Source of the DNA: Bradyrhizobium erythrophlei | Lineage (GTDB): Bacteria; Pseudomonadota; Alphaproteobacteria; Rhizobiales; Xanthobacteraceae | Reading direction: 5' to 3' | DNA: 64,000 nucleotides | NCBI RefSeq assembly: GCF_900129505.1 | Contig: NZ_LT670818.1 | Location: forward strand, 4,001,001 to 4,065,000 | Part shown: in pieces, positions 5,858 through 42,051 of the stretch | How positions within the stretch are numbered: position 1 is the stretch's first letter | Layout of the letters: each line of letters starts with the position of its first letter | Made by a program: the position numbers and the translations under genes | Notes under the pieces: model-generated | Told to the model about the DNA's origin: nothing | Databases searched by the model: none | Seen by the model: only the letters and a program-made list of their open reading frames with translations

Positions 5858-5934
5858 GGCGGGGTAGCTCAGCTGGTTAGAGCACGGGAATCATAATCCT
5901 GGGGTCGGGGGTTCGAGTCCCTCTCCCGCTACCA
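5858..5934 (+). tRNA. tRNA with CAT anticodon (probably elongator tRNA-Met)
   Basis: A full cloverleaf can be folded: acceptor GGCGGGG with TCCCGCT, D-arm GCTC/GAGC, anticodon stem CGGGA/TCCTG around loop ATCATAA (anticodon CAT), T-arm with TTCGAGT, and an encoded CCA end. The CAT anticodon means elongator Met, or Ile if the C is modified to lysidine. The body looks like the elongator. Its last 16 bases are the attachment core of the genomic island, so the tRNA was kept intact by the insertion. Confidence 0.93.
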
Positions 5935-7495
5935 CTAGTCCCCCACCCACAGAACGCCTCAAGAACGGAGCGCCCAAAAGCTCCTGTAGGCGGCCTTTAA
6001 TCTCTACTTCAAAGCCCTTCACTCCGGGTTCCGCGTGCACCACGACGCTGTGAAGAAGCCGCCGCAGGGGCGCGATTAGTTCGGGCCGCTCGGCTGCCTC
6101 TTCGTCGTCTAACGCTTCACGCATTGCCGCAACGTCTTTCAGATAGTTCTTGATTGCGGCCGGGTGGATCGAAACCAACTTCCTCTTGTCGTCCGCTGCC
6201 ATGAGTTGTTCCGCGATGGAAGCCTTCTCAGCGTCCAAAGCTTGGGCCTTGGGAATGATGGCATCGGCAGGCAGGCCCTGTGCGATGGAGTCGACCAAAC
6301 GACCTAGCTCGCGCTTTATCTCCCCGAGACGGCGTTCAAGCTTTGCGCGGTCTTTGACGGCGCCACGGGCCAGCTGCGTGCGTTCGTCATTATATGCCGT
6401 CAGATAGACCTTGAAGTAATCGGCGTCCTTCAGCACCTCGCGCAACCCATCGAGAACGGCAGCTTCGATCTTGCGGCGATGAACCATGCGGCTATTCGTG
6501 CAGGACCCGCTCTCACGGTAGGTTGAACACTGCACGCGCGGTTCGCCACGATGAAGACCGACCGACCCCATGCCGCCGCCACACGTCGGGCAGCGGAGCA
6601 GGCCGCTCAGCAATCGCGCGACGCGATGCTTCGGCTTCGTGTGCGGTATGATGCGCCGCTTTGCCTGGACCGCCTCCCATGTCCCATCGTCGACAATGCG
6701 GAGATGCGGCGCGGCTGATCGCTTGTGCTGTGTAATGGGATTCGGTCGCGAAAGCCGTTTGCCGGTCTCCGGGTCTTTGACCATACGGACCTTGTTCCAG
6801 ACGATCTGCCCAACATAGATTTCGTTCAGGAGAATGCCGTTGCCGCGCTGAACGCTGCCGTAGATCGTCGAAGCGTTCCAGCGAATTCCGTGCGGCGGTT
6901 CGACCCCGTCGCCGTTCAAGCGGCCAGCGATGTCGCGAGCCGTGTAGCCATTGGCGAACTCCTTGAAGATGCGGCGAACGATCTTGGCCTGATCTTCGAC
7001 TATCTCAAGCTCGCCTGCGCGCCCGGCTATCGGTCGATAGCCGTAGGCTTTGCCGCCAGCATGCCTGCCGTCCCTAATAACGCCTTCCATACCGCGCCGC
7101 GTGTGCAGGACTAGGTTTTCGATAAACATCTCGCCCATCAACGCGCGTAACGCGCCGTCAATCTTGGTCACCTTGCCCGTGGCAGTGTGAATCGTGATGC
7201 CGAGAAATTCGAGGCTCTTGCGTGCGGTGTGCCAATCACCTTGGTCCCGCGAGATGCGGTCAATGTCTTCAGCCACAAGAACGTCGAAGCTCTTCGCTTC
7301 GGCTGCACGCATCATCTTCTGAAAGCCCGGCCGGTTCGCAGCCGACGTACCCGAGATAGCCCGATCATCGAATACCGCGACAACCTTCAGTCCTTCGCGG
7401 GCGCATAGCTCGCGACAAAGCGCAATCTGGTCTTCAATGGATTTATCGTTCTGGTTTTCAGAAGAGAAGCGGGCGTAGATAGCGGCGCGAAGCAT
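5891..7495 (-). CDS. Large serine recombinase (site-specific integrase)
   Basis: The 534-residue protein has the resolvase-type catalytic domain at its N terminus: YARFSSENQ with the probable nucleophile S11, then DDRAISGTSAANRPGFQKM and VLVAEDIDRISRD. A recombinase domain follows (GKAYGYRP, about residue 150 on), then a zinc ribbon (CPTCGGGM and a second Cys pair, CSTY and CTNS) and a coiled coil of about 370-430. It should integrate and excise the island by double-strand exchange through a 5'-phosphoserine link. Its 3' end runs across the attL core into the tRNA, so the last nine codons and the stop are host tRNA sequence. It overlaps the ATGA of the small upstream ORF. Confidence 0.92.
   Translation of the reverse strand: MLRAAIYARFSSENQNDKSIEDQIALCRELCAREGLKVVAVFDDRAISGTSAANRPGFQKMMRAAEAKSFDVLVAEDIDRISRDQGDWHTARKSLEFLGITIHTATGKVTKIDGALRALMGEMFIENLVLHTRRGMEGVIRDGRHAGGKAYGYRPIAGRAGELEIVEDQAKIVRRIFKEFANGYTARDIAGRLNGDGVEPPHGIRWNASTIYGSVQRGNGILLNEIYVGQIVWNKVRMVKDPETGKRLSRPNPITQHKRSAAPHLRIVDDGTWEAVQAKRRIIPHTKPKHRVARLLSGLLRCPTCGGGMGSVGLHRGEPRVQCSTYRESGSCTNSRMVHRRKIEAAVLDGLREVLKDADYFKVYLTAYNDERTQLARGAVKDRAKLERRLGEIKRELGRLVDSIAQGLPADAIIPKAQALDAEKASIAEQLMAADDKRKLVSIHPAAIKNYLKDVAAMREALDDEEAAERPELIAPLRRLLHSVVVHAEPGVKGFEVEIKGRLQELLGAPFLRRSVGGGLVVAGEGLEPPTPGL
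5919..5934 (+). repeat. Left attachment site (attL core) in the tRNA
   Basis: This is the 16-base tRNA 3' end, identical to 38141-38156 and 42036-42051. The flanking base differs on both sides (T versus G before, C versus A after), which defines the repeat exactly. Confidence 0.85.
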
Positions 7496-7701
7496 CAGTT
7501 CAACTTCCTAGATTGGGCCTCGTGATCTTGGCGCGCCGCGTACCTAGCCAAAGCCTCAACGAAGGCGACAATGTCGGGGTCAAGTGTACCCCGGCCGTTG
7601 CGCCTGGGTAAGCCCTGTGGGGCCGCCAAGACCCCTCCCGGTCCACAGGTATTCAGGCCTTTTGGGCCCGATTGAGATCCAGAGTGGGGAAAACTAGCCA
7701 T
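7495..7701 (-). CDS. Small ORF translationally coupled to the serine recombinase
   Basis: This 68-residue ORF has no assigned function. Its stop overlaps the recombinase ATG in an ATGA arrangement, which suggests coupled translation. The C-terminal half, DIVAFVEALARYAARQDHEA, looks like an amphipathic helix. Similar short helical ORFs often precede serine recombinases in rhizobial islands (from memory, not checked). The N-terminal Gly/Pro-rich part is less convincing, so the true start could be internal. Confidence 0.5.
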   Translation of the reverse strand: MASFPHSGSQSGPKGLNTCGPGGVLAAPQGLPRRNGRGTLDPDIVAFVEALARYAARQDHEAQSRKLN

Positions 7702-8341: not shown

Positions 8342-8584
8342 ATGTCTATCGATACCAACACGTCCACGTGCGATCTTATGTTCATGAGTGACATCCGTGC
8401 GCACTACGGGCGCACAGGCCGCCCGGCCTCGCGGAGTTTCATTTATGAAGCAGAAGCGCGGGGTGACATTCCGCCTTCAGCAAAGTTCGGCCATCAACGC
8501 GTATGGTCCCGCAAGGCCGTCCAGGCCAAGGACGCCGCGCGTTTCGGGGCCGCAATAACAGGCCACAAAGCGGCTGCCGCCTAA
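8342..8584 (+). CDS. AlpA/excisionase-like DNA-binding protein
   Basis: This 80-residue protein has a winged-helix/MerR-like core: SDIRAHYGRTGRPASRSFIYEAEARGDIPPS followed by the wing-like VWSRKAVQAKDAARF. That is the usual AlpA layout, in which the helix-turn-helix reads DNA and an R-W or V-W wing follows. AlpA proteins activate excision and replication genes of satellites and islands. I chose the ATG at 8342 because GGAG lies 8 bases upstream; a longer frame from 8291 has no such site. It is the first gene of the rightward replication module. Confidence 0.7.
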   Translation: MSIDTNTSTCDLMFMSDIRAHYGRTGRPASRSFIYEAEARGDIPPSAKFGHQRVWSRKAVQAKDAARFGAAITGHKAAAA

Positions 8585-8772
8585 CACCCCAAAATCCCGC
8601 GCCACGCCCTTCGCGCCACACCGCGCGAACAGCCCGACGTGCGCGCCACCACCGAGAGCGACGACTATGCCGAAGGTTTTACCCCTGACGCGGCAACGAG
8701 TAAGCCTCGCGCCCGCCAACACCACGACGCGCCTCGCGAACTAACGCATCTACCAACTTTGAGGACAGAAAC

Positions 8773-9135
8773 ATGACCACTTCCAACAATTCCGAGATTA
8801 TCGCGCTCTGCCTTCTCGTCGACTGCGACGGCGTCGCGCCGTACATCGCCTGCCGTGAGGACAGTGACGAACCGCAGCTATATGACGTTGACTATGACGC
8901 CATGTACGACGTCCAGGATTATGAGGCACGGGGTCTGAAGTCTCGCATCATTCCGATATTGCGTCACCGCAGCCGACATGGTCTCGACTTCGTTACAACC
9001 GGCGACTGCGCCGTCGCCCCGGCTGGCTTCAACGAGATAAAGGACGACGAACCGGCTTATGCCCCGTGGTGCTCCCGCGTGGATGCATGGTCTCGACTTC
9101 GTCCCCGGCGTGAAGAACCGAGGCGCCTGAGATGA
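8773..9135 (+). CDS. Hypothetical acidic protein of the replication module
   Basis: I do not recognise this 120-residue protein. The first 60 residues are acidic (DYDAMYDVQDYEARG), and the C terminus is basic (RPRREEPRRLR). It has a GAGGA ribosome site 7 bases before the ATG, and its TGA overlaps the next ATG (ATGA), so it is part of one operon with the primase. Codon use is sound over the whole frame. Confidence 0.65.
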   Translation: MTTSNNSEIIALCLLVDCDGVAPYIACREDSDEPQLYDVDYDAMYDVQDYEARGLKSRIIPILRHRSRHGLDFVTTGDCAVAPAGFNEIKDDEPAYAPWCSRVDAWSRLRPRREEPRRLR

Positions 9136-9347
9136 GCCTTGAACGCAAAATGCTGCGCATGCGCGCCCAACTTCTGAAGCACGCAAAATCGTTGCCTCAG
9201 ATTCCCTTCGACCAAGTGCAGAAGCCCGGCACCGTAACGCATGCGATTTTCGCGCACGATGCGGCATGTCGCGCCGCGCGAACGCATCGGCTTACGGATT
9301 GTAGCTGCGCCGCCGATGTTTCTTTTCACCGCGAACCGGCCGAGTGA
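9132..9347 (+). CDS. Hypothetical small protein upstream of primase
   Basis: This 71-residue ORF starts inside the stop of the previous gene and ends inside the GTG start of the primase gene, a four-base overlap on each side. That tight coupling is the main evidence that it is translated. The N terminus (MSLERKMLRMRAQLLKHAKSL) is a basic helix, and the C-terminal half has several His and Cys residues without a clear metal motif. No function can be given. Confidence 0.6.
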   Translation: MSLERKMLRMRAQLLKHAKSLPQIPFDQVQKPGTVTHAIFAHDAACRAARTHRLTDCSCAADVSFHREPAE

Positions 9348-11632
9348 GCATAATGACGACCAATGTAGTATGCTTGCCGGACAATACGAAGGCCCGAAGG
9401 CTGACTAACCGCGAAATCGCAGACGTGCTCGCCTCGGCTGGCGTGTATGTGTTTCAGACGATAGCTAAAACGCCGATCACGCCGCGATTCAATAGGGCTG
9501 ACGACGCGCTCACGGTAGCCGAGGTCGAAGAAGCCGTCGAAGAGTTCGAAACGAAGCACAAATACAAGCCGGTACAGGTTGGGGCCACGCGTGATCCCAA
9601 AAAGATCAAAAAGATGTACATGCGCAACATCGACGCCATGTGGTCGATCTCGTGCGGGCCGAGCAGGATTGTAGTTATAGACGCCGACCGAAAGGACGGT
9701 GGACCGGAAAAAATCGCAGCGCACTTCGAGAAGCATGGTCTGCCCGAAGGGTGCGTCGTCGTGCCGACTCAGAGCGGGGGCCGACACTACTATTTCAGCG
9801 ACCCCGATGGTAAGTTCACTAACAGCGCAGGACTTCTAAAAACGGATTACGGCTGCGACGTTCGCGGTAGGGGCGGTCAGTGCGTTGCGCCGGGCAGCAT
9901 TCGCGAGGACGGCAAGAGCTATGGCACTAGGAAGGATCTTCTGGCGCTTCGAGATGCGATACGCGACGGCACGCTGCCGCAGTTGCCCGATCATATCGTC
10001 GAGCTGATCGGCTCCGCTGGCGCAGCAAGCAAGAGCGTAACCGAGACCGAGCTGCTCCCCATCATCCAAGAGCTGCAAGAGACCGATTGGCCGGATCACG
10101 CCGATCTGTTCGATCCCGATCTCGGAACCTACGATCTCGAAGCGCTAAGGGCGAGCAACCCCGCGTTCGCCGAAGCGTACGACAACCCCGACAGCGATGT
10201 CTCCACCGGAAGGTGGGCGCTCGCGCAGGCAGTGTTGAAGAAGATCAGGATGCCCGTCACCCACCTCGCGGTGCTCTATGAGGGATGGGGCCACGCAGGC
10301 AACCAGACCGACGACGGCAAGGGCAGTGGCAACTACAATCTGCGCGACATCGCTCGCGAGTGGTACAAAAATCAAGGCGTGTACCAATCGGATGGCGCGG
10401 CGATGGGCGCTGTCGTCGACCCTGACGAAGAGTCCGAGCCGGAGCCGCGTGGCCTTCTATCATTCGCAGCGGACATCGCGCGCTTCACGGACCCCGAACA
10501 TATCATCGAGAACCTGTGCGCGCCCGGCCAGCTCGGCATGATCCACGGCGCGTCGAACGTCGGCAAAACCTTCGCGGTGATTCATTGCGGCGAAACGGTT
10601 GTCGCCGGAGACAAGTATTTCATTCGCAACGTCGAGCAGTCCGGCGTGCTCTATTGCTTCGGCGAAGGCCGCGAAGGCTTTCGCAACCGCCTCGCCGCCT
10701 ACCGCCGCCACCACAGCGGCCTAGACAACAAGGGTATGATTGTGCGCGACGGTATCCCGAACCTCGGCACGAAGCTCGCCAGGGCGATCAAGGAACTGTC
10801 CAAGGCGATTGACGAGTCGAACGAGATGTACGCCGAGCACGGCATGAAGCCGGTCAAGCTGGTGTTTCTAGACACGTTCGCCAAGGCGATAGCTGGGGCG
10901 CAAGAGAACGACACGTCGGTCGTGCAGCCGATCCTCAACGCGCTGCGCAAGCTGGCGCGCGACAAGGGCGTCTGCATCATACTGATACATCACAGCGGCA
11001 AAGACACGATGCTCGGCGCACGCGGTTCGAGCGCCATCATCGCCGACATGGATTTCAATCTTGAGATCGTCGACCACAACGAGGCGAAGAAGCGCAAAAT
11101 CAAAGGGGTCAACCCCGGCCAGCTTGCGATCATCTCGCCGAAGATGCGCGACGCCAATAAGAGCGGCATCCACGTCTTCAAGCTCGAAGAGGTCGAGCTA
11201 GGCCATAACAAATGGCACAACCCCGTCACGTCGATGGTTGTCACCCCCATCCTGCCGTCCGATGGCGCAGCCATGGGCGCTGTGACCGATGACGAAGAGC
11301 CCGCCGCGACTGCCGACGCCCTGACGGCCGATCAGAATCGCCAGGACGAGGCGAAGCGCCAAGCGTTGCTGGTCAAGGTGCGCGAGGCGATGTCAGGCGT
11401 GTCCAAGATCGTCGGCGCAGAGCTGCAAGCGCCGCTCGCCGAGATCGAGCGCAAGCTGAAGGTTCTCGACGATCTGAAAAAGGATAGCGGCACGAACTAC
11501 GCTCGCGAGCTGAAGCAGCTTCTATTCCGTGGCGAGCCCGCCGAGCTGCTCGACAATGGCTGGCTGAGATTCCAACCGGGCACCGGCCGCAAACCGAGTT
11601 GCCTGATCTTCACGCCCAAGAGGAACACATGA
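9344..11632 (+). CDS. Primase-polymerase / RepA-like helicase
   Basis: The 762-residue protein joins an N-terminal prim-pol domain to a RecA-fold ATPase. Prim-pol signs are D113-A-D115 (VVIDADRKDG) and H148 in SGGRHYYF, then the GCDVRGRGGQCVAPGS loop, as in bifunctional primase/polymerases of plasmids and phage satellites. The ATPase has Walker A GASNVGKT at 402-409, Walker B LVFLDTF with D510, and the IHHSGKD sensor, matching RepA-like AAA_25 helicases. It should start replication of the element. The start is GTG 9344 or ATG 9353. The linkers before and after the ATPase both contain SDGAAMGAV (from residues 349 and 639). Iterons follow about 0.3 kb downstream. Confidence 0.88.
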   Translation: MSIMTTNVVCLPDNTKARRLTNREIADVLASAGVYVFQTIAKTPITPRFNRADDALTVAEVEEAVEEFETKHKYKPVQVGATRDPKKIKKMYMRNIDAMWSISCGPSRIVVIDADRKDGGPEKIAAHFEKHGLPEGCVVVPTQSGGRHYYFSDPDGKFTNSAGLLKTDYGCDVRGRGGQCVAPGSIREDGKSYGTRKDLLALRDAIRDGTLPQLPDHIVELIGSAGAASKSVTETELLPIIQELQETDWPDHADLFDPDLGTYDLEALRASNPAFAEAYDNPDSDVSTGRWALAQAVLKKIRMPVTHLAVLYEGWGHAGNQTDDGKGSGNYNLRDIAREWYKNQGVYQSDGAAMGAVVDPDEESEPEPRGLLSFAADIARFTDPEHIIENLCAPGQLGMIHGASNVGKTFAVIHCGETVVAGDKYFIRNVEQSGVLYCFGEGREGFRNRLAAYRRHHSGLDNKGMIVRDGIPNLGTKLARAIKELSKAIDESNEMYAEHGMKPVKLVFLDTFAKAIAGAQENDTSVVQPILNALRKLARDKGVCIILIHHSGKDTMLGARGSSAIIADMDFNLEIVDHNEAKKRKIKGVNPGQLAIISPKMRDANKSGIHVFKLEEVELGHNKWHNPVTSMVVTPILPSDGAAMGAVTDDEEPAATADALTADQNRQDEAKRQALLVKVREAMSGVSKIVGAELQAPLAEIERKLKVLDDLKKDSGTNYARELKQLLFRGEPAELLDNGWLRFQPGTGRKPSCLIFTPKRNT

Positions 11633-11880
11633 CGGGGGCACCCGATTTTATACGCGGCGGCCAGGGCTATTGGAAGGTCCACAACGTGCCCCACGTTCGC
11701 AAGCTCGACGGCCAGCCCACAATGCTGACCGTTTGGAAATCCTTCTGTGCGAAGTGCGGAGGCCCGTTCGAGACGACCATCAGCGCCGCCGACGAGAGGG
11801 GTCCGCAGAACAGACGGTGCTTCGATCACCGCGCGCCGGGCAGGGCGGTCGAGCGTCGGAAACGGAAAAAGAAGAAATAG
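11629..11880 (+). CDS. Small Cys/His protein, last gene of the replication operon
   Basis: The ATG overlaps the primase stop (ATGA), giving an 83-residue product. The pattern CAKC, then after about 20 residues RRCFDH, could bind one zinc ion, so a zinc-ribbon-like DNA- or protein-binding role is possible. The tail RRKRKKKK is strongly basic and fits nucleic-acid contact. I do not recognise the family. A terminator follows directly. Confidence 0.65.
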   Translation: MTGAPDFIRGGQGYWKVHNVPHVRKLDGQPTMLTVWKSFCAKCGGPFETTISAADERGPQNRRCFDHRAPGRAVERRKRKKKK

Positions 11881-11881
11881 A

Positions 11882-11905
11882 GCCGCCTCCCGGCGGTTTT
11901 CTTTT
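11882..11905 (+). terminator. Rho-independent terminator of the replication operon
   Basis: CCGCC and GGCGG pair around a TCCC loop and are followed by TTTTCTTTT, two bases after the stop of the zinc-ribbon-like gene. Confidence 0.8.
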
Positions 11906-11947
11906 GGGTCGGAATCAGCCTGTTTCCGAGGCGTCCTAACAGCCCTT

Positions 11948-12231
11948 GATGAATTGAAGCCGTTGAAAACATAGGGGTTCTAGGTTTTCGCTTCAAACGC
12001 ATCAACGGTAAGCACGGATCGCGCGTACGGTTCGGGAGGGCTCGGCGACAGCGGTTTGAAGCGTTTGAAGCGATGGCTTGATGAATTGTAGTATTTGAAA
12101 TCATTTAGCTTTTAGCTTTTCGCTTCAAACGCTTCAAACTCATCAAAAATGGCTTTTCGGCTCCAACGCTTCAAACTCATCAAGCACCCCCCCTACAGAG
12201 TAGGGGGTGCTGGTGGAAGCGTTTTGAAGAG
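11948..12231. repeat. Iteron cluster, putative replication origin
   Basis: The 9-mer CGCTTCAAA (or its complement TTTGAAGCG) occurs exactly at 11989, 12055, 12064, 12121, 12130 and 12167, with degenerate copies nearby. Two direct copies at 12055-12072 and two inverted copies at 12121-12138 make an 18-base inverted repeat around an AT-rich 48-base spacer. A companion motif TTGATGA / TCATCAA recurs at about 11948, 12079, 12141 and 12177. A GC-rich hairpin follows at 12184-12210. Directly downstream of a primase-helicase operon, this is the usual place and shape of an iteron-type origin. Confidence 0.7.
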
Positions 12232-21521: not shown

Positions 21522-23510
21522 ATGAACGAGTGGGGCTTTGCGGCGGAGGTAAGCAAGTGGTGGGAGAAGGCAGCCGCCGCTAATCCAGTTTGGCGCTTCA
21601 ATAAGGTGCATGTCGAGAAAGAGGTTCCGGGCGGTAGGCTGCGGAGCGACTTGGTTGTATTTGGCGATGCGCCTGCGCTTTGTGGCGAGATTCGCTTGCC
21701 GGATCACCAAAACTCTTCTCCGTTAGACTTCGACAATCTCAAGGACGCTGTAAACAAGGCGCAGTCTCACGGCTGCCGATGGGCCTTTACGTCGGACGCG
21801 AAATCGCTGTTTCTCATCGACACACTTCAAACCGGCTCGCTCATAACGAAGATCGTTCACAAGGAAGTCTTAGGCGACGCGTTCAAACGCGAGGACCTCG
21901 ACGATCCGCAGGTCTTGCAGAGAATCTCAAAGGCATGGATAAGCGCCTTTCATGATATAGCCCCCATCGTCGCCGGGATAACAAAGCCGGTCGGCATGGC
22001 GGCTGACGCCCTGTTTGTCGAAGCGCTCCGAGAGCTGATGTCCGCGCCTGTTGCGGCGATCCGCGACGCATTGCACGCGAAGCGATCTACCAACACCAAG
22101 TTTCAGAACGAACTCATTGAGTGGATGGTCGATGAACAAGGATGGGCGCATGATCCTTCGAGGTGGGAGGAAGAGATCAATCGCGCGGCTAAGTTGACTG
22201 CGTACGTATTTGTTACACGCTTGATGTTCTACGAAGCGCTACGCCGCTCTAAGCCCCAGCTTGGTCCCTTATCGTTTCCGCCGGAGCCGAATAACAGTAG
22301 CAAGCTCGCGGCTCAGATGCTGACGTTTCAGCTTGACGAAGCACGGCGGCTGTCGGGTGACTACGACACGCTGTTCTCTTGGGATCGCGTGTCAGAGTAC
22401 GCGCTGATAGCGGATGCTTGCGTGCCATTTTGGCGACGCATGATTCAGCACATAGAACATTTTGACCTCAGCACTATCGACCACGACATTCTAGGGCGCC
22501 TCTTCGAGCGGTTGATTGAGCCTCATGAACGTTACGAGTGGGGCCAGCATTACACCTCATCCGATGTTGTCGATCTGATGCTATCGTTTGCGCTGAAGAC
22601 CGGGGAAGGAAACGTACTCGACCCTGCGGTTGGCGGCGGGACATTCCTGGTTCGTGCCTATGTCAGGAAGAAAGCGTTGCAGCCGGGCAAGACTCATCAA
22701 CAACGCCTCGAAGAGCTTTTTGGGACCGATGTGTCTCGCTTCGCCGCGACCATTGCAACGGTCAATCTCGCAATCCGGCAATTGGAGTTTGAGAACAACT
22801 ATCCTCGAGTCGCAACAAAGAGCTTCTTTCGTACCGAACTCGGCGAGGAATTGATGCAGTTGCCGCTTCAATCGACATCTGCAAGCTTGCCGGTGAAGAG
22901 TCCGGTTACTCTTCCGCCTATGCGCGCCGTCGTGGGAAATCCGCCTTATGTGCGAATCCACAAGCTTGGCCGCGACCGGCAGATGGAGGCGGCAAGCATT
23001 CTCGGGCGAAGCGGTCTTGTGCGATCTCCGTCGAGAATGCCGAAGTCAGCAAACTACCATGTATACTTTTGGTTTCACGGTGCGAAATTTCTCGAACCGG
23101 GCGGTTATCTAGCGCTGTTAACTGCGGGCGAATGGCTGGATAGCGACTATGGGGTCGTGTTGCAGGAATGGCTTTTGAACAATTTTAAGATTGAAGCCTT
23201 CATCGAGAGCGGCGCTGAAGCCTGGTTCTCGGAAGCGCGAGTCGGAACAGTCGTGACTATAGCAAAGCAATGCTCTGACGAAGCGGAGCGCGAGGCTAAT
23301 TTGGTGCGGTTCATCACGCTTCGTCGAACACTTCGATCCTTAATCGGACTGCATGAATCCCTCGAAGCCCACATTGGTGCAGTTGACGGGCTTCGGGACA
23401 AAATATTGAATTTGTCCGGCGACGGGGAGTCCAATGATATGGATTGGAGCGTGGTGTCCCAGGCGGCGCTACGTTCACTAGGCAGCAAGATGACAGCTAA
23501 CGCGGAATGA
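21522..23510 (+). CDS. Eco57I-like N6-adenine DNA methyltransferase with possible N-terminal nuclease
   Basis: The 662-residue protein has the HYTSSDVVDLML segment, SAM-binding motif I DPAVGGGTF starting at D367, and catalytic motif IV NPPY at 473-476, which define an N6-adenine methyltransferase of the Eco57I/type IIG group. The N-terminal 100 residues (RSDLVVFGD, CGEIRLPD with D43, E56 and R58) resemble a PD-(D/E)xK nuclease fold with Arg in place of the usual Lys, so cleavage is uncertain. The following gene, 3-6 bases away, supplies the specificity part that is normally the C terminus of one long polypeptide. Confidence 0.82.
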   Translation: MNEWGFAAEVSKWWEKAAAANPVWRFNKVHVEKEVPGGRLRSDLVVFGDAPALCGEIRLPDHQNSSPLDFDNLKDAVNKAQSHGCRWAFTSDAKSLFLIDTLQTGSLITKIVHKEVLGDAFKREDLDDPQVLQRISKAWISAFHDIAPIVAGITKPVGMAADALFVEALRELMSAPVAAIRDALHAKRSTNTKFQNELIEWMVDEQGWAHDPSRWEEEINRAAKLTAYVFVTRLMFYEALRRSKPQLGPLSFPPEPNNSSKLAAQMLTFQLDEARRLSGDYDTLFSWDRVSEYALIADACVPFWRRMIQHIEHFDLSTIDHDILGRLFERLIEPHERYEWGQHYTSSDVVDLMLSFALKTGEGNVLDPAVGGGTFLVRAYVRKKALQPGKTHQQRLEELFGTDVSRFAATIATVNLAIRQLEFENNYPRVATKSFFRTELGEELMQLPLQSTSASLPVKSPVTLPPMRAVVGNPPYVRIHKLGRDRQMEAASILGRSGLVRSPSRMPKSANYHVYFWFHGAKFLEPGGYLALLTAGEWLDSDYGVVLQEWLLNNFKIEAFIESGAEAWFSEARVGTVVTIAKQCSDEAEREANLVRFITLRRTLRSLIGLHESLEAHIGAVDGLRDKILNLSGDGESNDMDWSVVSQAALRSLGSKMTANAE

Positions 23511-23516
23511 AATGTG

Positions 23517-25073
23517 ATGCGTGACAGCAAGCAGCCGACAAGCCTACTGTCTCCGGCCCATCCCCCCTACATTGGGGCGGCTTGGCGCGCACGCTTTTTG
23601 CGAGCGCCAAAGGTCGCATTGGAGTTGGCTGGGAGACCCGACTTTGTGGCCTTGAGCGAGGTTGCAACAATCAAACTTGGATTGAAGACAGGAGCCGATA
23701 GCTTTTTCTTTCTTGAGCGGATAGATGACTCCGGCGCGGGCAAACAACTGATTTCCCGGCGCGGACTAGTGACGGTTGAAGGGGCGGACGGCTGGCGCGG
23801 CGAAGTATCTGCCGCAGACCTGAAGGCAGCCGTTTTGAATCCGCATCAACTTTATTTAGGCGATGATAGGTCGTTCGCCACCCCTGACGTTCCGAAGCAC
23901 TATTACCTTTATCCCCGCCCTGGCAAATTGCGATACGGGTTGAATGAATATGTGAAGCTCGGCGAGTTAAAGGGAATCCACGCGGGCGAATTGGTGAAGA
24001 GTAACGCAAGTGATGTCGGCTGGTATCGACAAGCTCGAACGTTGGTCGCAAGTGAATGGGTGTTGCCCTACAATTCCGCGTACGACTACGGCGCTTGGCA
24101 TAATCCAAGCGGGGCGGTTCTCAACGGTCGTTTCGTCGGCGCAGAGCCGCTTGATCCTCAAGCGAGCGAGCTGCTAGGCGCGGTTTTGAATAGTACCTTC
24201 GCTGCAAGCGGAAGACTACTCGAAGGCGTCGCGACAGGCGTCGAAGGGGCGTTTGATGTTGGTCCGCCCGCTGCCCGTCGCGTCATGGTCCCTGACTTCA
24301 GGCGTTTCGGTGAAACTGCATCAAAGAAGGTCCAGAAGGTGTTTGCCGCTATCCGCAAGGGTGGAAGGATGCTGCCCGCTCCGTCGGCAAAAGGCCAAGT
24401 GGATCACCTCCGACGAGATTTAGATACTGCTCTGCTTCTCGGTATGGGTTTATCGGCGGGACAGGCAGCGGCAATGTTGGATAGTCTGTATTCGAGCTAT
24501 GGACGGTGGCGCGCGAACATCGAGCAAGTAGAGATGCAAATGCGGGCGAACAGGCGGCAAATGCACGCCACGGGCCAAGGCCGGGATCAAAAGCCTGCCG
24601 AGGTCGCTGGGAAACGCGTTTGGGAGGAAATAGAGCACGACATTCCTCTCTATCCAAAGAGCTTCCTATCGAAGAACGAAGTACTGGAGGTAGTAAATGT
24701 GCCATCAACAGCCAGCTTGTCAGAGACTGAGCCGCTTTTTGATGCGGGTGTGGTCCACCTGAAGAACAAGGCTATTGATCTAGGCTCTTACGACCGTGTT
24801 CGTTACGTCGCAATGCTGCGCACTCTCGGAATCGTTGGAAGCGTTGAAGTCCCGACTTCAGCGTCGAGAGCACGAGCGATCTGCGAGTTGTTTGAGAAGG
24901 ATCAGAAGCGTTTTGACGAGTTGGCGCTCCCTCAAGCAGCAAAGTACATTTCGGGCGCAGATGCTGTCGCAGAGGTGGTGGAGGCGGCGCGAAAGCACTG
25001 GTATTCAGCCAGCCGCAGGAGCGCTCTAGCCAAGCCCGAGGGTGAGAAGCGAGCTTCGAAGAAGCTCAACTGA
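23517..25073 (+). CDS. Specificity (target-recognition) partner of the methyltransferase
   Basis: The 518-residue product begins just after the methylase stop (GTG 23514 or ATG 23517). The part FVALSEVATIKLGLKTGADSFFFL and the later LLGAVLNSTFAASGRLLEGVATGVEGAFDVGP resemble target-recognition segments at the C terminus of Eco57I-like enzymes. The distal half has helices (RRDLDTALLLGMGLSAGQAAAMLDSLY) and a basic C terminus. I infer that the two products form one complex that recognises and modifies, and perhaps cuts, DNA. The short gap could be natural coupling or an old frameshift in a fused gene. Confidence 0.65.
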   Translation: MRDSKQPTSLLSPAHPPYIGAAWRARFLRAPKVALELAGRPDFVALSEVATIKLGLKTGADSFFFLERIDDSGAGKQLISRRGLVTVEGADGWRGEVSAADLKAAVLNPHQLYLGDDRSFATPDVPKHYYLYPRPGKLRYGLNEYVKLGELKGIHAGELVKSNASDVGWYRQARTLVASEWVLPYNSAYDYGAWHNPSGAVLNGRFVGAEPLDPQASELLGAVLNSTFAASGRLLEGVATGVEGAFDVGPPAARRVMVPDFRRFGETASKKVQKVFAAIRKGGRMLPAPSAKGQVDHLRRDLDTALLLGMGLSAGQAAAMLDSLYSSYGRWRANIEQVEMQMRANRRQMHATGQGRDQKPAEVAGKRVWEEIEHDIPLYPKSFLSKNEVLEVVNVPSTASLSETEPLFDAGVVHLKNKAIDLGSYDRVRYVAMLRTLGIVGSVEVPTSASRARAICELFEKDQKRFDELALPQAAKYISGADAVAEVVEAARKHWYSASRRSALAKPEGEKRASKKLN

Positions 25074-33761: not shown

Positions 33762-34415
33762 TCAGGTAGTTCTATTAGCGAGTATCCGCTGAACCTCCTT
33801 GATCATGTTCGCCACATCCGTCTCGGAGAACCGGTCGTAATGACCATGCGCGGCGCTATTTCTAATGTCCGCAAGCGCAGTGATCTGCTTTTGCACCAGC
33901 TTGTTGTACACATCTGCTTTCGCTAGATCAGCGTTCATTTTGTCCAGCTTGCCGATAGGAAGAGCATTATCGACACACATCTCGCGCAAGCCAGCCTCCA
34001 GGACGACGCCCGCAGTAACAGCGGCGGCAGGGACGTAGCCGGACGATAGAAGTTCGCTCGCTTGCTCAAGCTCGCTATCGAACACTTCCGCTTGAACGAG
34101 AAGCTTTAGCGAATTCAGATAACCGCCTTCATAATCTTCCTTCGCCGCGTCAAGGACGGCGCGTAACTTTAGGAAAATTCCGTGATTAGTTAGGTACATG
34201 CTTGTCTTTTCGCACGCGACAAATTGCTTGAGATGCACGGACTCTGGCCCGCACACGGCTGAAAGCAGATGCCTCACTTTCACGCTCCAATTGATTAGTT
34301 GATTTTGATCGATGAAGTGGCCTTCGAGGGGCTGGCGTTCGAATCTCTTCGACGCTTCGATAGCGTCCGCCTGTTGACATAGTTCCTGAAATCGTCGCTT
34401 GAAGTTTTCGGCCAT
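33762..34415 (-). CDS. HEPN/DUF4145-like protein
   Basis: From the ATG at 34415 (AGGGAA upstream) the 217-residue product has AAVTAGVVLEAGLREMCVDN at about 131-150 and LADIRNSAAHGHYDRFSE, with R185 and H190 in R-x4-H spacing. This is the DUF4145/HEPN pattern found in several restriction- and defence-linked proteins. The frame extends to 34562, but that part overlaps the next gene and lacks a ribosome site. It is 45 bases upstream of the 33120-33716 gene on the same strand. Confidence 0.65.
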   Translation of the reverse strand: MAENFKRRFQELCQQADAIEASKRFERQPLEGHFIDQNQLINWSVKVRHLLSAVCGPESVHLKQFVACEKTSMYLTNHGIFLKLRAVLDAAKEDYEGGYLNSLKLLVQAEVFDSELEQASELLSSGYVPAAAVTAGVVLEAGLREMCVDNALPIGKLDKMNADLAKADVYNKLVQKQITALADIRNSAAHGHYDRFSETDVANMIKEVQRILANRTT

Positions 34416-34540
34416 CGTTGTTCCCTGGCTTGTTCGGTACTGTAGGCCGCGCTGCACGGGGCGTGAGGCCGGGTGATTATTCTGACGATGTAAAAATGGA
34501 CGTAGAAGGCGGTTTGCCCCGGCCCCAAGAGCCCGAAGTA

Positions 34541-35251
34541 TCAATCGTGGGCACCAGCGCAAAGCTGGTTATAGGTTTTTACGAATAACTGAGCTTGCTG
34601 CTGATTAGGAGAACCTTCAATCATCACTGCCGTGAGAGGGATTAAGAACACAAACGCCTTGTTACCGGAATAGCCTCCAAAGTCGTTCTTAGAATTTATC
34701 GTGCCACATACAACCGGCGTATAGTAGTCGTTCATTTTTCGATCTGAGTAGAGGCTCATGGGGCCGAAGGTGGCAGAGTCTGGATCACGGAGCTGCTGCT
34801 TAACCGCCATCTGCACCACATCCGGGCTGTATTTTACGTCGGCTGGATCGGGGCGCGTTTTCATAGACTTCAACTTTTCGGCTGCCGACGACTTCCCCTG
34901 CTGATCGGCGGCTTTTGCTCCGACAGCCATAGCTATTTTCAAATCATCAGGACTCATAGTCTTAGGCAGTTCGCCCCCGTGCTTTGCCGCGACCCCTGCT
35001 TCCATTGTCTTTTTGATCTGATCGCGCGAAGCGTCTGACGCCGCCTGCTGATCGGCAGTCTGGTTTAGAAGTTTGCGCGGTCCCGAAAAAACGGAAAGGC
35101 CGACTAGGCACCAAAAGACCACTACACCCCAGCCTGACACCCCGAACGGCTGCTTACGGGAGACGCGACGGATCGCCAGAACGGTGCCCCAAATCGCCAG
35201 TGCGAGGATGAGAACTGAAAAAGCGAGCATCCTCAAAACTAAAGAATCCAA
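34541..35251 (-). CDS. Membrane-anchored protein with a C-terminal extracytoplasmic domain
   Basis: The 236-residue product has two membrane segments (LRMLAFSVLILALAIWGTVL and WGVVVFWCLVGLSVFSG), a charged linker, and a C-terminal domain with VVQMAVKQQLRDPDSATFGP and YYTPVVCGTINSKNDFGGYS. The latter motif (a K-x-x-L-x-D-P-x-S-A-x-F phrase followed by CG-x-I/V-N) is common in small exported proteins of mobile DNA in proteobacteria. No enzymatic role is known to me. Confidence 0.7.
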   Translation of the reverse strand: MDSLVLRMLAFSVLILALAIWGTVLAIRRVSRKQPFGVSGWGVVVFWCLVGLSVFSGPRKLLNQTADQQAASDASRDQIKKTMEAGVAAKHGGELPKTMSPDDLKIAMAVGAKAADQQGKSSAAEKLKSMKTRPDPADVKYSPDVVQMAVKQQLRDPDSATFGPMSLYSDRKMNDYYTPVVCGTINSKNDFGGYSGNKAFVFLIPLTAVMIEGSPNQQQAQLFVKTYNQLCAGAHD

Positions 35252-38055: not shown

Positions 38056-38140
38056 AGTGAAGGCGCTTTTCGCACTGGATCAGGCCGCTCGGTAAGTCTT
38101 TGAAAATAAACGCTCTAAACGGGTGGGGGACTGCATGTAG

Positions 38141-38156
38141 CCCTCTCCCGCTACCA
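38141..38156 (+). repeat. Right attachment site 1
   Basis: An exact copy of the tRNA 3' end (16 bases). No tRNA body precedes it, so it is an att scar and not a gene. It lies 85 bases from an integrase remnant. Confidence 0.85.
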
Positions 38157-38202
38157 ACGTTTTCAATCACTTAGCTTGTATCGAAAAAGCGCTAGTCATT
38201 GG

Positions 38203-38415
38203 CTAGACATCTGTGCGCACCCCAATAGTTTTGGGAAGGGCGGTACCAGATTTGAAGATCGCTATCCGGCGATCAAGTTGCCAGAGTTCGACATCATTGA
38301 CGTCAGCTAGTTGTTCGGCCCGCTCTCTTGCTGCCTGCTCGTCGGCACAATAAAGATTGGCCGCGCTTATAATGTGGCTGTGTTTATCCAAAAGGTAAGC
38401 CCGGTAGTGCAGCAT
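38203..38415 (-). CDS. Small hypothetical protein (Bradyrhizobium-type)
   Basis: The 70-residue product (MLHYRAYLLDKHSHIISAAN, then CADEQAARERAEQLADVNDV and ELWQLDRRIAIF) follows the pattern of a very common small Bradyrhizobium protein with a Y-R-A-Y-L start and an E-L-W-Q ending. A G-rich site precedes the ATG at 38415. The function is unknown. Confidence 0.7.
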   Translation of the reverse strand: MLHYRAYLLDKHSHIISAANLYCADEQAARERAEQLADVNDVELWQLDRRIAIFKSGTALPKTIGVRTDV

Positions 38416-38449
38416 CCCCACGCCCCCCAAGCGTCGAAAACAATACCAC

Positions 38450-38656
38450 TCACGCGGCGGCAATGCTGCTCCATCGCCAGCCATCCACCACAACGCGATC
38501 GGCATTGCATTCTTTGAAGTGAACGGTCAGTTCGGCCTCCGCTAAGCGCTCCCAGTACTCCGCTTCCGCGATAAGCCTCCCTCTCTTGGCAGGGTTGTAT
38601 GCAGCCTGTTGTCGACATAGCGAACCCATAGCGCGCAAGCGCCGAACCTTTTTCAT
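38450..38656 (-). CDS. Small hypothetical protein (Bradyrhizobium-type)
   Basis: The 68-residue product (MKKVRRLRAMGSLCRQQAAY, RRL-type then RLIAEAEYWERLAEAEL) is another common short rhizobial type. GGGGAGG lies 5 bases before the ATG at 38656, which fixes the start. It probably forms a unit with the gene at 38203-38415. Confidence 0.72.
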   Translation of the reverse strand: MKKVRRLRAMGSLCRQQAAYNPAKRGRLIAEAEYWERLAEAELTVHFKECNADRVVVDGWRWSSIAAA

Positions 38657-39546
38657 TGTCACCTCCCCAGCCTTGTTTTCCACAAGCTTATTCGTTCTCT
38701 TTGCTTCAGAGTTATTACTGTTATCCGACAGAACTATTTTTATTGGGCGCGGCTCTTAGAGCCGTTCGTGTTCCGACAATGGAACTCTTATCATTGATTT
38801 TGAGTCACCTTATTGATTCCAGACCCGCGCCAATAGTCGAGTTGGGAGCAGGGAAAACTTGGTTCAGTCCAACAGTCCGTGTTCAAACTAAGACGTATCA
38901 GTTACGAAGCAGATTAAATGCTCGTCACAGATCGGTAGGTGCGGGGAAGGCGAGCCAGTGAGACCAGTGCTTGGCAGCGCGAAGGCAAAAATTTCTTCCT
39001 TGCCAAAATCAAAACGGCTTAACTGAAATTGAGAAATTGCAAGATTCAACAGCGTGATTTGCCGCGCATGCTTCGCGTCTCACGCGACAAATCCATCCTC
39101 TCCGAGGAATTGACAAGATGGGCAAGCGCTTTGCCCTGGCCGTGTCGCCGCTCCCTCCTGCCCTTGGAAACCTATTGGCGGACAAAGCGTCGTTACATAT
39201 TTGAGAAAAACGCGGTGACAGATTACCTGCCTTCCAGTACGTGGATGCAAGCCCACCCCCTGCCTATTGTCCGGCTCTGTCGGGCGATAGGCAGGGGGGT
39301 GTCGGCAACGTCACCGATCAATAACCACGCAATCAGCACGACCGATCAGCGCATGCTGAAGGCAAAGACAAAAGAAAAAACAAACAAAACAACAAACGTC
39401 GGGCTGAAATGCTGCGGTAGCTGTCAAGCGAAGTCATTGCGACCTCTAGCAATTTTCTTCGGCGCCCCTGGATCGTGGATATGGGTACAGTGTCTAGGGG
39501 TGTGTGAAGGGAATATCCAAAAGGAGCAATTCCCCCGACCACCTAA
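38657..39546. other. Long region without a supported gene
   Basis: About 890 bases contain only weak frames without ribosome sites. The clearest object is a hairpin of about 20 base pairs at 39254-39301 (CACCCCCTGCCTAT with ATAGGCAGGGGGGTG). The region near 39360-39390 is A-rich. Confidence 0.5.
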
Positions 39547-39669
39547 CTAGAGCAGATGTGGCATAAGGGCGATACGTCCCCTTTCATAGCTTTCCCAAAC
39601 AGCGGGCGTTTCGGTAGGAAGTTCGTGGCCCCTTCCATAGCGCGGCAGACGGGTGTAGCTTTTGCTCAT
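39547..39669 (-). CDS. Possible very small protein
   Basis: A 40-codon frame from 39669 reads MSKSYTRLPRYGRGHELPTE, then AVWESYERGRIALMPHLL. It has no good ribosome site and no known family, so support is weak. Confidence 0.25.
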   Translation of the reverse strand: MSKSYTRLPRYGRGHELPTETPAVWESYERGRIALMPHLL

Positions 39670-39847
39670 TGAGCTGCCAACGGAACGTGCCGAAGTTCCG
39701 TGAGTTAATGGCGGCGTTGATGCCGACGGCAGGCTCACAGCACTTCTCACAATTTAAACTGCTTCTCCTCGCTGGCTCATCAGGTAGCCAATCAGGTAAT
39801 GCGCCCGCAAACCACTTGCGGCGCCCAACCACGCATGGAGGGATCCA

Positions 39848-40309
39848 ATGTTCCGCACAATTATCATCGGCGCGGTGTCGGCTCTTATGCTCTCAGCCGC
39901 CGCGTTCGCGCAGCAAGGGGGCACGGCCCAGGAGGCTCGGGCCATGCTCGACAAGGCGGTCGCCGCTGTAAAAACGGACCAGGCCGTGGCGGTGGCGATG
40001 TTCCTCAAGGGAGAGGGCGGGTTCTTGGACCGCGATCTTTATCCATTCTGTTTCAGAATCGCTGACGGGAAGACCCTCGCCAGTCCGAAGGCTGTTCCAG
40101 CTGGCACGGACGTTAGAACACTTAAGGACGCCACCGGCAACGCGTATGGTCTGGCAATCTACGCCGCGGCGCAGAAGCCGGAAGGTCAAATCACTGAGCT
40201 GCAGAGCTACATGTTTCCAAAGCCGGGCACCACCACGCCGACGTTTCCGAAGGTGAGCTTCGTAACCAAGGTCGGCGATCTGGGCTGCGGTGTCGGTTAT
40301 TACAAATGA
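39848..40309 (+). CDS. Secreted Cache-domain-like protein
   Basis: The 153-residue product has a signal peptide (MFRTIIIGAVSALMLSAAAFA, cleavage after AFA) and then an array like single Cache domains: AQEARAMLDKAVAAVKTDQA, FLKGEGGFLDRDLYPFCFRI, and a C-terminal KVSFVTKVGDLGCGVGYY. Cache folds bind small molecules. Here there is no attached signalling domain, so it would be a stand-alone periplasmic binder. GGAGGG precedes the ATG, and a strong terminator follows. Confidence 0.8.
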   Translation: MFRTIIIGAVSALMLSAAAFAQQGGTAQEARAMLDKAVAAVKTDQAVAVAMFLKGEGGFLDRDLYPFCFRIADGKTLASPKAVPAGTDVRTLKDATGNAYGLAIYAAAQKPEGQITELQSYMFPKPGTTTPTFPKVSFVTKVGDLGCGVGYYK

Positions 40310-40371
40310 ACGTTCCGAGCCCAAACGATCTCGTGGGGCGACGACCTATGTTGCCGAACCTTGACAATGAA

Positions 40372-40401
40372 CCCGCTCGGCTTCGGCTCGGCGGGTTTTT
40401 T
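40372..40401 (+). terminator. Rho-independent terminator
   Basis: CCCGC and GCGGG pair around TCGG-CTT-CGGCTCG-type inner sequence and are followed by six T. It ends the Cache-like gene transcript. Confidence 0.8.
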
Positions 40402-40587
40402 CTATCAACGCGACCGTCCTCATCGAGACCGTTACATTAGCCGATCCAAATTAAAGGGACCCGGTTGAAGTCGTTCGGCAGGACCGTGTTGAAGCCTTTG
40501 CGGCGGGCGCTGGGACTTAGCAAGGCGACTGTTTCCTCAATCGCCAAACGAGTGCAGTTGACACGACCGAAGTCGAAACGAGATCGG

Positions 40588-40905
40588 CTAGGGCCATTGC
40601 GCACCTTTGAAGCTAGCTAACGCATTCTCCGAATCCCACCGATGCAACAGATAGTTAATATTGCTCTCGTCGATCATGAATTTAATGGCGGAAACCGCGA
40701 AATATATTCCGAGCACGATACCGGAGGCCCAATATGTTTCGACGCCTGATTTCCACACGAAGAGCGAACCGAGGAAACTTAGCATTCCAGCCAGTTCGCA
40801 GAATTGTCGGCGACGCATCGTCTTTTTCAGATCGTCATCCCAAAGCTTATATAGCTCCGCAGGACTCCCCCCGTACTCACAGAGGTTTCGATGCGTCATC
40901 GCCAT
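40588..40905 (-). CDS. Small membrane protein
   Basis: The 105-residue product has two membrane segments (LAGMLSFLGSLFVW and ASGIVLGIYFAVSAIKFMI) after a cytoplasmic N terminus (GGSPAELYKLWDDDLKKTMR). No family is recognised. Confidence 0.55.
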   Translation of the reverse strand: MAMTHRNLCEYGGSPAELYKLWDDDLKKTMRRRQFCELAGMLSFLGSLFVWKSGVETYWASGIVLGIYFAVSAIKFMIDESNINYLLHRWDSENALASFKGAQWP

Positions 40906-41068
40906 GAACCGCCCCCGCTCAGCCCCGTCCTCAGTCGCGGTCGTTTCCGCGCTGGTTGCCCCAAAAGCCGGTGCAACCTAACAGGTTGAGTGGTTGCCCG
41001 CTAGGCGAGTTGCAACACTGCAACCGCCGTGATGGCTTCGCGCGCTCTTTGGGGATGCGCCACCGGAA

Positions 41069-41503
41069 TCAATTTGATGAGTTAGATGACGACGCGACGC
41101 TCGCTTCCGTTTTGGACGGCGCGGCTGTCTGCCCGCCGATTGGCTCCTGGTTCAAGTAGCGAAGAAACTCAGGGGCCAAGAGTTTGCTTCCAATCAGAAC
41201 GAAGGCATCCACAGCCGCAACCATAATTTTGATATCGATGCCCTTGGCGGAAGCCGCAACGAGAAAGGAAAACGCGACTAAGTAAAGTATGGTCACGAGC
41301 ATTAAGATGAGACCAAGAAAGCCTGTATCGATGCCCTCATCTTTTTCGTCAAAAAAGGCGCTGTGGCAGAAGAAGAGAACGATCACTCCGAACGTGATAA
41401 GGAATGCGGCCCCCAAACCTATTCCAAACCACTGCCAAGCCTGCTCCTGAAGGGGCTCGGATTGCAGAACGTTTGCCAAGGCGTCCATAATCGTCACCGC
41501 CAA
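41069..41503 (-). CDS. Small membrane protein of the island-end module
   Basis: The 144-residue product has three membrane segments (FGIGLGAAFLITFGVIVLFF, FLGLILMLVTILYLVAFSFL, IMVAAVDAFVLIGSKLL) and a Ser-rich tail (QTAAPSKTEASVASSSNSS). A degenerate copy of that tail occurs at about 28474-28530 beside the other integrase remnant, so the gene belongs to a recurrent integrase-linked cassette. It lies 17 bases beyond the 105-aa gene on the same strand. Confidence 0.65.
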   Translation of the reverse strand: MAVTIMDALANVLQSEPLQEQAWQWFGIGLGAAFLITFGVIVLFFCHSAFFDEKDEGIDTGFLGLILMLVTILYLVAFSFLVAASAKGIDIKIMVAAVDAFVLIGSKLLAPEFLRYLNQEPIGGQTAAPSKTEASVASSSNSSN

Positions 41504-41519
41504 TTTCCTTCAGGCGATT

Positions 41520-41837
41520 CTAACTTGTCGGCAGCCGTCCTTTGGCTGTCTCAACGATACGAGCATGTGACAACGTCCGCTCGCAATAGTCCTCGCGTTC
41601 CCACTGCATTCGTTCCTGAACTGCCTTAAAGTTCGCGACGCGCCGCTTGATCTCATCCCGCTCGGAGCCCGCCGACGACCAGGCCATGGGCTCCAGCCGG
41701 GCGGGGCGAGGGGACTCAGCAAACGCGCGGTCGACGATCTTGAGCGGCACAATGGGCTTAACGTTCGTGCCCTCCACGGCCTTGACGTGAGCCATCGTCT
41801 CTTCAATCAAAGCCGCAAGTTCAGCTTGCCATGTCAT
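41520..41837 (-). CDS. 105-aa island-end protein (copy C)
   Basis: This is a second intact copy of the gene at 37624-37941. The N-terminal halves are identical at protein level up to RLEPM. The C-terminal halves diverge (RRVANFKAVQERMQWEREDY, then SHARIVETAKGRLPTS). The near-identical part continues downstream through the integrase remnant to the att repeat. Confidence 0.65.
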   Translation of the reverse strand: MTWQAELAALIEETMAHVKAVEGTNVKPIVPLKIVDRAFAESPRPARLEPMAWSSAGSERDEIKRRVANFKAVQERMQWEREDYCERTLSHARIVETAKGRLPTS

Positions 41838-41882
41838 TGAAATGCCCCCCGCGCGGAGCTTGGGCCCGTGCGGGTGCTGCGG

Positions 41883-41951
41883 TCAAACCGGACTGCGGAA
41901 AAAGCTGTGGGCAACCTCCCTCTCTATTGCCAAAACCGCTTCACGCTTCTC
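41883..41951 (-). pseudogene. Tyrosine-integrase 3'-end remnant (copy C)
   Basis: This repeats the 22-codon integrase tail found at 37987-38055, with the same break point and the same following sequence up to the att repeat. Confidence 0.75.
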
Positions 41952-42035
41952 AGTGAAGGCGCTTTTCGCACTGGATCAGGCCGCTCGGTAAGTCTTTGAA
42001 AATAAACGCTCTAAACGGGTGGGGACTGCATGTAG

Positions 42036-42051
42036 CCCTCTCCCGCTACCA
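42036..42051 (+). repeat. Right attachment site 2 (outer island boundary)
   Basis: The third exact copy of the 16-base tRNA 3' end. To its right, gene content returns to ordinary metabolism and transport. Confidence 0.85.

Follow-up and report, generated by a model that had tools for sequence, protein, structure and literature searches.

A 64,000-nucleotide stretch of the Bradyrhizobium erythrophlei genome (NCBI RefSeq assembly GCF_900129505.1, contig NZ_LT670818.1, positions 4,001,001 to 4,065,000 of the forward strand; termed here the window) contains an element that is bounded by attachment (att) repeats and that encodes both a serine recombinase and a protein in which a primase-polymerase (prim-pol) domain is joined to a RecA-type helicase, past whose gene there is an origin of opposed iterons. 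The genome holding the window is a single contig of 9.18 Mb. The genes and origin features of the replication module are as follows, in window coordinates (ORF, open reading frame; HTH, helix-turn-helix; L010 and the like are loci compared with the window).

8342..8584 (alternative start 8291), forward strand: AlpA/excisionase-like HTH ORF, whose L010 and L015 homologues have weak HTH_17/Phage_AlpA matches
8773..9135, forward strand: 120-aa ORF with which the coupled set begins; for it the comparison of 17 loci lists no homologue
9132..9347, forward strand: 71-aa ORF coupled by ATGA; homologues (39-52% identical) adjoin the prim-pol gene in L010, L013 and L015
9344..11632, forward strand: prim-pol, RecA-type helicase and C-terminal domain, a putative initiator (Pfam, residue alignment, RSF1010 RepA match)
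11629..11880, forward strand: 83-aa zinc-ribbon-like ORF coupled by ATGA (Zn_ribbon_Nudix, 0.018 only)
11879..11900, forward strand: intrinsic terminator, a GC stem plus T-run
11989..11998, forward strand: outer iteron
12054..12073, reverse strand: left cluster of two iterons, the left arm of a 20-bp inverted repeat
12074..12119, no strand: AT-rich spacer, a candidate melting site (AT 0.73 versus 0.43 for the region)
12120..12139, forward strand: right cluster of two iterons, the right arm of the inverted repeat
12167..12176, forward strand: third right iteron

The four ORFs at 8773-9135, 9132-9347, 9344-11632 and 11629-11880 overlap successively by ATGA, GTGA and ATGA, which makes their coupling plausible. 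The third encodes a 762-residue protein (termed here the primpol) that matches the Pfam families Prim-Pol (1.2e-21, N-terminal) and AAA_25 (4.4e-27). Residues D113, D115, S144, H148, D172, K408 and D510 are invariant within an alignment of 24 sequences; presumably these have catalytic roles (the DxD at 113/115, S144/H148 and D172) or are Walker residues (K408 and D510). Of the solved structures, REGULATORY PROTEIN REPA (1g8y, E 1.7e-10; also the 1nlf/1olo entries) resembles the helicase part most closely; we take it to be the RSF1010 RepA helicase. The primpol family is rare, occurring in 8 of 265 genus genomes (this one included) and in 8 of the 391 genomes of a family sample that includes 5 of those 8; tblastn hits lie in 650 phage records and 19 plasmid records, but no hit extends over 80% of the query. 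Further matches are P0001 (98% identical, on a 10-kb metagenome contig) and P0002-P0003 (about 60%). Because a scan finds 10 terminator-like sites versus 6.2 in shuffles, assignment of the terminator rests on its place and stem.

The 9-mer CGCTTCAAAC occurs six times past the primpol gene, on the forward strand at 11989, 12121, 12130 and 12167 and on the reverse strand at 12054 and 12063; within 200 Markov-resampled versions of the 1.1 kb searched, no 9-mer attains more than 4 copies. The inverted repeat (12054-12073/12120-12139; z = -5.3 as folded DNA) is composed of four of the six copies and, inasmuch as each arm consists of two overlapping copies, repeats and inverted repeat are one feature. 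A first-pass annotation of this DNA, which described coupled genes from 8773 to 11880, a prim-pol helicase, a terminator after them and six exact copies of a 9-mer, is borne out on each of these points; the inverted repeat that it noted around an AT-rich spacer is likewise real, but is a perfect 20 bp rather than 18 bp. Elsewhere, a doubled CGCTTCAAAC-type iteron was found in eight viral stretches, each with one doubled copy and no opposed array, and no primpol was found there (sought on the fetched stretch only); within the genus the doubled iteron occurs in this genome only (1/257).

In order to compare origins among relatives, 16 distinct primpol loci were used, namely the window (W) and 15 relatives (L010-L015, L019, L023-L029 and L148). 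Excluded were duplicates (L017 and L018, which match L025 at 100% and 99.99% identity along 12.6 and 21.0 kb, and L154, which matches L015 at 100% along 13.0 kb), further loci on the same contigs (L020-L022, L144, L147, L149-L153, L169-L173) and partial or distant matches (L002, L009/L016, L030-L035, L145, L146, L155-L168). The L017 and L018 contigs are filed as Phycicoccus jejuensis and Streptomyces iakyrus, respectively, and their match, L025, is a 63-kb IMG/VR contig; probably all three are one phage that contaminates those two assemblies.

The region considered was the 1.1 kb that follows the primpol stop codon at each locus (only 220 bp in L013 and 553 bp in L014). Its best repeated 9-mer was identified, and the test then required at least 6 copies, in opposed clusters of at least 2 each around a spacer of 20-60 bp. 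This architecture is present at 12 of the 16 loci--that is, in the window and in 11 of the 15 relatives--as compared with a single one of 1600 sequences generated by Markov resampling and none of 14 upstream controls. The spacer is richer in AT than its region at all 14 loci having such a spacer, though at L024 by 0.01 only. The iterons themselves vary by locus, as in CGCTTCAAA (W), ACTGGCGGA (L027), GACCGTGCA (L026) and ATTCCTTCC (L029). Hence the repeats that the first-pass annotation took for the origin of a replication module keep their position and architecture in related modules while changing in sequence, which supports that assignment; that they might be private to this locus is ruled out by the opposed clusters in 11 of 15 relatives.

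What the iterons vary with was examined over 14 loci (L014 and L025, which lack usable split iterons, being omitted). Iteron similarity correlates with identity of primpol residues 640-762 (r 0.53, 0/5000 permutations), weakly with helicase identity (r 0.24, 119/5000) and not with residues 101-375 (r 0.02, 1954/5000); controlled for the helicase, the C-terminal correlation is 0.49 (0/5000). Exchanges are seen in individual pairs: L015 and L027, whose helicases are 20% and C-termini 57% identical, have iterons AGTGGCGGA and ACTGGCGGA, while L026 and L148, at 73-81% in helicase bins and 17-19% in the C-terminus, have GACCGTGCA and AAAGTGCCG. Within two close viral contigs (L023 and L024), a block of ~700 bp at 54-82% identity spans the last ~100 codons together with the iterons; outside of it, identity is 90-99% up to the block and 94-100% just after, and further downstream there is a 100-column window at 66% and a stretch of ~400 columns at 41-61%. 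These patterns suggest that the C-terminal ~120 residues seem to read the iterons of their own origin, and we infer that C-terminus and origin move as one specificity cassette.

The module lies near one end of an element inserted at a tRNA-Met gene, the relevant features being the following.

5858..5934, forward strand: tRNA-Met(CAT), the integration site, whose final 16 bases are the att core (ARAGORN, Rfam)
5919..5934, forward strand: left att core CCCTCTCCCGCTACCA; next come CT and the arm AGTCCCCCACCC
5891..7495, reverse strand: large serine recombinase with C-terminal codons within the tRNA gene (Pfam Resolvase/Recombinase/Zn_ribbon)
38141..38156, forward strand: right att core, preceded on its 5' side by the arm GGGTGGGGGACT and 8 bases; right boundary of the 32.2-kb element
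38157..42051, no strand: 3.9-kb piece ending with a third att core, a probable remnant of a related element

The tRNA's 3'-terminal 16 bases (5919-5934) recur at 38141-38156 and 42036-42051. The 12-bp arms are inverted: AGTCCCCCACCC lies 3' of the tRNA core, and GGGTGGGGGACT and GGGTGGGGACT, which lie 5' of the two right cores, are its reverse complement, or nearly so. Such cores and arms are to be expected of a serine-integrase element that has a symmetric phage attachment site (attP) and is integrated, and this arrangement delimits a 32.2-kb element plus the 3.9-kb remnant. At the DNA level, an ORF in the remnant (41520-41837) shares 94% identity with 37624-37941, on which basis related elements were probably once in tandem. 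GC content is 0.49-0.62 across the element versus 0.58-0.70 in six 1-kb bins to its left. At all 29 loci of other genomes, taken from the best-matching of 60 genomes searched (own genome included), the left flank can be aligned as far as the 3' end of the tRNA.

A sister island of 34.6 kb occupies the same tRNA in G191, a genome of the same genus (G191:C1:7638485-7673080; loci L010, L036 and L037), with the same arms and, at both ends, a core allele one base different. Integrase, HTH ORF, small ORF and primpol are in the same order as in the window and are 78-82%, 40%, 52% and 41% identical, respectively; the integrase there is split over two overlapping frames. Its cargo differs: among nine proteins scanned are ZorA, ZorB, ZorC and ZorD (a full Zorya set), an Orf5/HEC-06-like protein (PADLOC) and part of a type I specificity subunit. 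G191 has no phrog_15 match, and its single phrog_2 match lies outside the island.

Many relatives, by contrast with the element, are phage-like: 9 of 15 have a phrog_15-type terminase on the same record, as detected either by profile (L019, L023, L025 at ~47 kb away, L026, L027, L028) or by homology to the L026 terminase (L011, L012, L015). These nine phage-type records share the prim-pol family with the element, and seven of them the origin architecture; a portal profile is shown for L026, where, after the primpol, there are a Neck1/tail-completion protein, small and large terminase subunits, a portal and a head-tail adaptor. The 24.6-kb L029 record matches neither phrog_15 nor phrog_2, and L013 and L014, at contig ends, have no terminase profile match on that contig; of the six relatives outside the nine, the profile search covered L010 (G191), L013, L014 and L029, the other two being the L024 and L148 records (5.9 and 13.4 kb). 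The L026 integrase is 76% identical to that of the window, and at its end are 64 bp that are 94% identical to the 3' part of tRNA-Met plus arm; as ARAGORN detects no complete tRNA there, what L026 shares is the attachment sequence and not demonstrably the integration into that tRNA.

Within the element itself, profile searches (phrog_15, phrog_2, phrog_21) found no terminase or portal family, which sets it apart from a prophage, and PHROGs found no packaging, capsid or other phage structural gene among 10 cargo ORFs (lysis families were not searched separately). This agrees with the first-pass annotation, which saw no capsid or packaging genes and which correctly placed a serine recombinase at a tRNA. 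Elsewhere in the genome there are one weak phrog_15 match, two phrog_2 matches and no phrog_21 match; one phrog_2 terminase match, outside the window (G000:C1:3083679-3085079, E 1.6e-26, in a 706-aa open frame), makes a resident prophage, and thus a candidate helper, possible.

Such a helper would be needed were the element a true phage satellite, induced by a helper phage, replicating by its own module and packaged in helper capsids, as are phage-inducible chromosomal islands (PICIs). The PICI EcCICFT073 has an AlpA-like regulator, a primase-helicase gene and two iteron sets around an AT-rich region (PMC6092414). Compared with Gram-negative PICIs, the element has a weakly assigned regulator, a primase-helicase, opposed iterons on both sides of an AT-rich spacer and no structural genes that were found; it also has the PICI order of integrase, regulator (again, if correctly assigned) and replication module, and its sister island likewise lacks terminase and portal families and carries defence cargo. 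But PICIs are 12-15 kb, whereas these two islands are 32-35 kb; the integrase is of the serine type and the helicase of the RSF1010-RepA type; the 10 cargo ORFs scanned with PHROGs include no packaging or capsid gene; no helper is known; and, although PICI att sites are never occupied by prophages, the terminase- and portal-bearing L026 has the tRNA-Met 3' end plus arm (without a complete tRNA) at its integrase, so that the element probably misses PICI att exclusivity. We therefore regard a true satellite as unlikely. The PICI resemblance pointed out in the first-pass annotation holds for layout and origin design and not for size. Its label 'satellite-like' is only partly supported: the module is not specific to satellites, as 9 of 15 relatives are terminase-bearing and L026 shares the attachment sequence.

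Alternatively, the element could be a decayed prophage that lost its structural genes, acquired cargo in their place and retains the replication module as a relic. Consistent with this, L026, with its closely related integrase, carries both terminase and portal, and there is other decay inside the element, namely a tyrosine-integrase gene fragment (28922-29406) whose identity with the integrase of viral contig L027 reaches 87% over 76 aa. A tblastn search of 5900-42100 that used as queries the ORFs of 80 aa or more at 12 relatives' loci, however, found no trace of a terminase or portal; outside of integrase and primpol, it matched the HTH ORF, one 114-aa L026 ORF, tyrosine-integrase pieces and a few unnamed L027 ORFs. 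Moreover, the replication genes are intact, as are the catalytic residues and the iterons, and the layout recurs in G191 with different cargo (though with a split integrase). We give decay, too, little credence.

The size of the element is typical of islands, as is its cargo, which is likely defence-like and includes the following.

21522..25073, forward strand: N6/Eco57I-type DNA methylase and an adjacent ORF without a family; cargo, likely restriction or defence
33762..34562, reverse strand: HEPN-like protein; cargo, with weak Pfam hits below cut-off

These properties would also suit an integrative mobilizable element (IME), transferred by conjugation with help in trans and using its replicon for maintenance only; replicating mobilizable islands are known (SGI1). 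Unlike such elements and integrative and conjugative elements (ICEs), however, it shows neither a relaxase nor a coupling protein in the Pfam scan of 27 island ORFs (shorter ORFs were not all scanned, and an origin of transfer, oriT, was not sought), and we deem this explanation quite improbable.

The probable explanation, instead, is a mobile cargo island of 32.2 kb that carries a phage-type replicon and is lodged in a Bradyrhizobium tRNA-Met gene, with the segment as its end for integration and replication. The recombinase would excise this island as a circle; the C-terminal ~120 residues of the primpol would bind the iterons, whereupon the AT-rich spacer would open, the fused helicase would load and the prim-pol domain would prime. 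The HTH protein may govern excision or expression. The module would have been exchanged with temperate phages, C-terminus and origin being transferred as a single specificity cassette, and extra circular copies would aid survival of the island on excision or its pick-up for transfer.

Several observations weigh against this interpretation. Four of the 16 loci fail the architecture test: L012 has clusters of 5 and 1; L013 has clusters of 1 and 4, with only 220 bp before the contig end; L014, with 553 bp before the contig end, has repeats without opposed clusters; and L025, over a full-length stretch, has no repeat above chance. The test was not blind, since its thresholds were chosen once the repeats were known, and no convincing motif is shared among spacers (the best, AGGAAAA, occurs in 7 of 14 versus at most 6 in 100 shuffles). 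The C-terminal correlation depends on two groups of loci with like iterons; for the 12 passing loci, with both groups thinned, r is 0.20 (388/3000) or 0.28 (188/3000). As the C-terminal codons adjoin the origin, hitch-hiking could yield the correlation without binding and, given the other diverged stretches downstream in L023/L024, the exchanged block is not unique. For none of the 19 genomes searched is the element's right flank listed next to that tRNA, so that the exact empty site was not found, and excision is predicted from the att repeats alone.

Viewed against known systems, the cargo island looks like an unusual relative of satellite and cassette elements rather than a new kind of thing. 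It has the features of a prim-pol initiator with an iteron origin, namely the archaeo-eukaryotic primase (AEP) catalytic residues, the helicase ATPase residues and iterons past the gene. Its helicase domain is, among solved structures, nearest to REPA; yet RSF1010 places the functions of RepA, RepB' and RepC on separate proteins, whereas primase, helicase and presumed iteron binding are here in one chain. In lambdoid phages, O and ori are exchanged together as a specificity unit, with the iterons inside the initiator gene; the element's initiator is unrelated to O and its iterons lie past the gene.

Staphylococcal elements provide a further parallel. The Rep protein of Staphylococcus aureus pathogenicity islands (SaPIs) and Cch2 of the staphylococcal cassette chromosome (SCC) use C-terminal domains for iterons past their genes, and DUF927 or Primase_Cterm/D5 domains have been described in such initiators (PMC7581432), as opposed to the RSF1010-RepA-type helicase of the element. 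Like SCCmec, the element is a cargo island combining serine recombinase, primase and helicase (PMC7581432), with an iteron origin just past the helicase gene; C-terminal binding is published for SCC and only inferred here. Differences are that the recombinase is far below the Ccr cut-off (NCBIfam CcrB, 118 versus 900 bits), that integration is at a tRNA and that primase and helicase are fused. Neither this origin family nor these islands were found in the open-licence literature searched, which is no proof of their being unpublished.

By having one attachment sequence and one type of replicon in common, the island and its relatives link phage genomes to defence islands that lack capsids, and provide a natural experiment on origin recognition, in which a near-identical helicase body is combined with different C-termini and different iterons. 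It is conceivable, though a long shot, that capsid-less, defence-carrying tRNA-Met islands of 30-35 kb parasitise sibling prophages, with which they would share att site and replication chassis but not the C-terminus and origin cassette. Island and phage would then replicate alongside each other with no competition for a single initiator, and the island would travel in sibling particles.

The remaining observations concern the genes flanking the module. The label 'AlpA-like', which the first-pass annotation gave to the HTH ORF (8291/8342-8584), is weak but reasonable: the ORF itself has no good match (best phrog_2790, E 0.32), while its homologues in L015 (52% identical) and L010 (40%) match Phage_AlpA (0.012) and HTH_17 (3e-4), both below Pfam cut-offs, and phrog_66 (excisionase/regulator, 4.6e-4). 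On its 5' side, at 8070-8129, are two tandem 30-bp repeats, 90% alike, a possible operator. Upstream of the integrase lies one further gene.

7495..7701, reverse strand: 68-aa ORF, 76% identical in L026

The integrase family is common: with E<=1e-100 as threshold, it occurs in 71 of the 265 genomes of the genus (own genome included), and tRNA-Met lies at or over the integrase end in 24 of 30 fetched genus integrase loci, again including its own. In genome G196, a 78% identical integrase (L072/L073) lies in a ~4.5-kb interval between att-like copies, with DUF3363 and type IV secretion system (T4SS) coupling-protein genes close to, but outside, that interval. The window's integrase runs into the 3' part of the tRNA gene, and its reading frame passes through the att core (5891-5934, 38120-38156), so that its final residues differ between LEPPTPGL when integrated and YMQSPTRLERLFSKTYRAA... 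when excised; such a change of C-terminus on excision is a possible switch of integrase activity.

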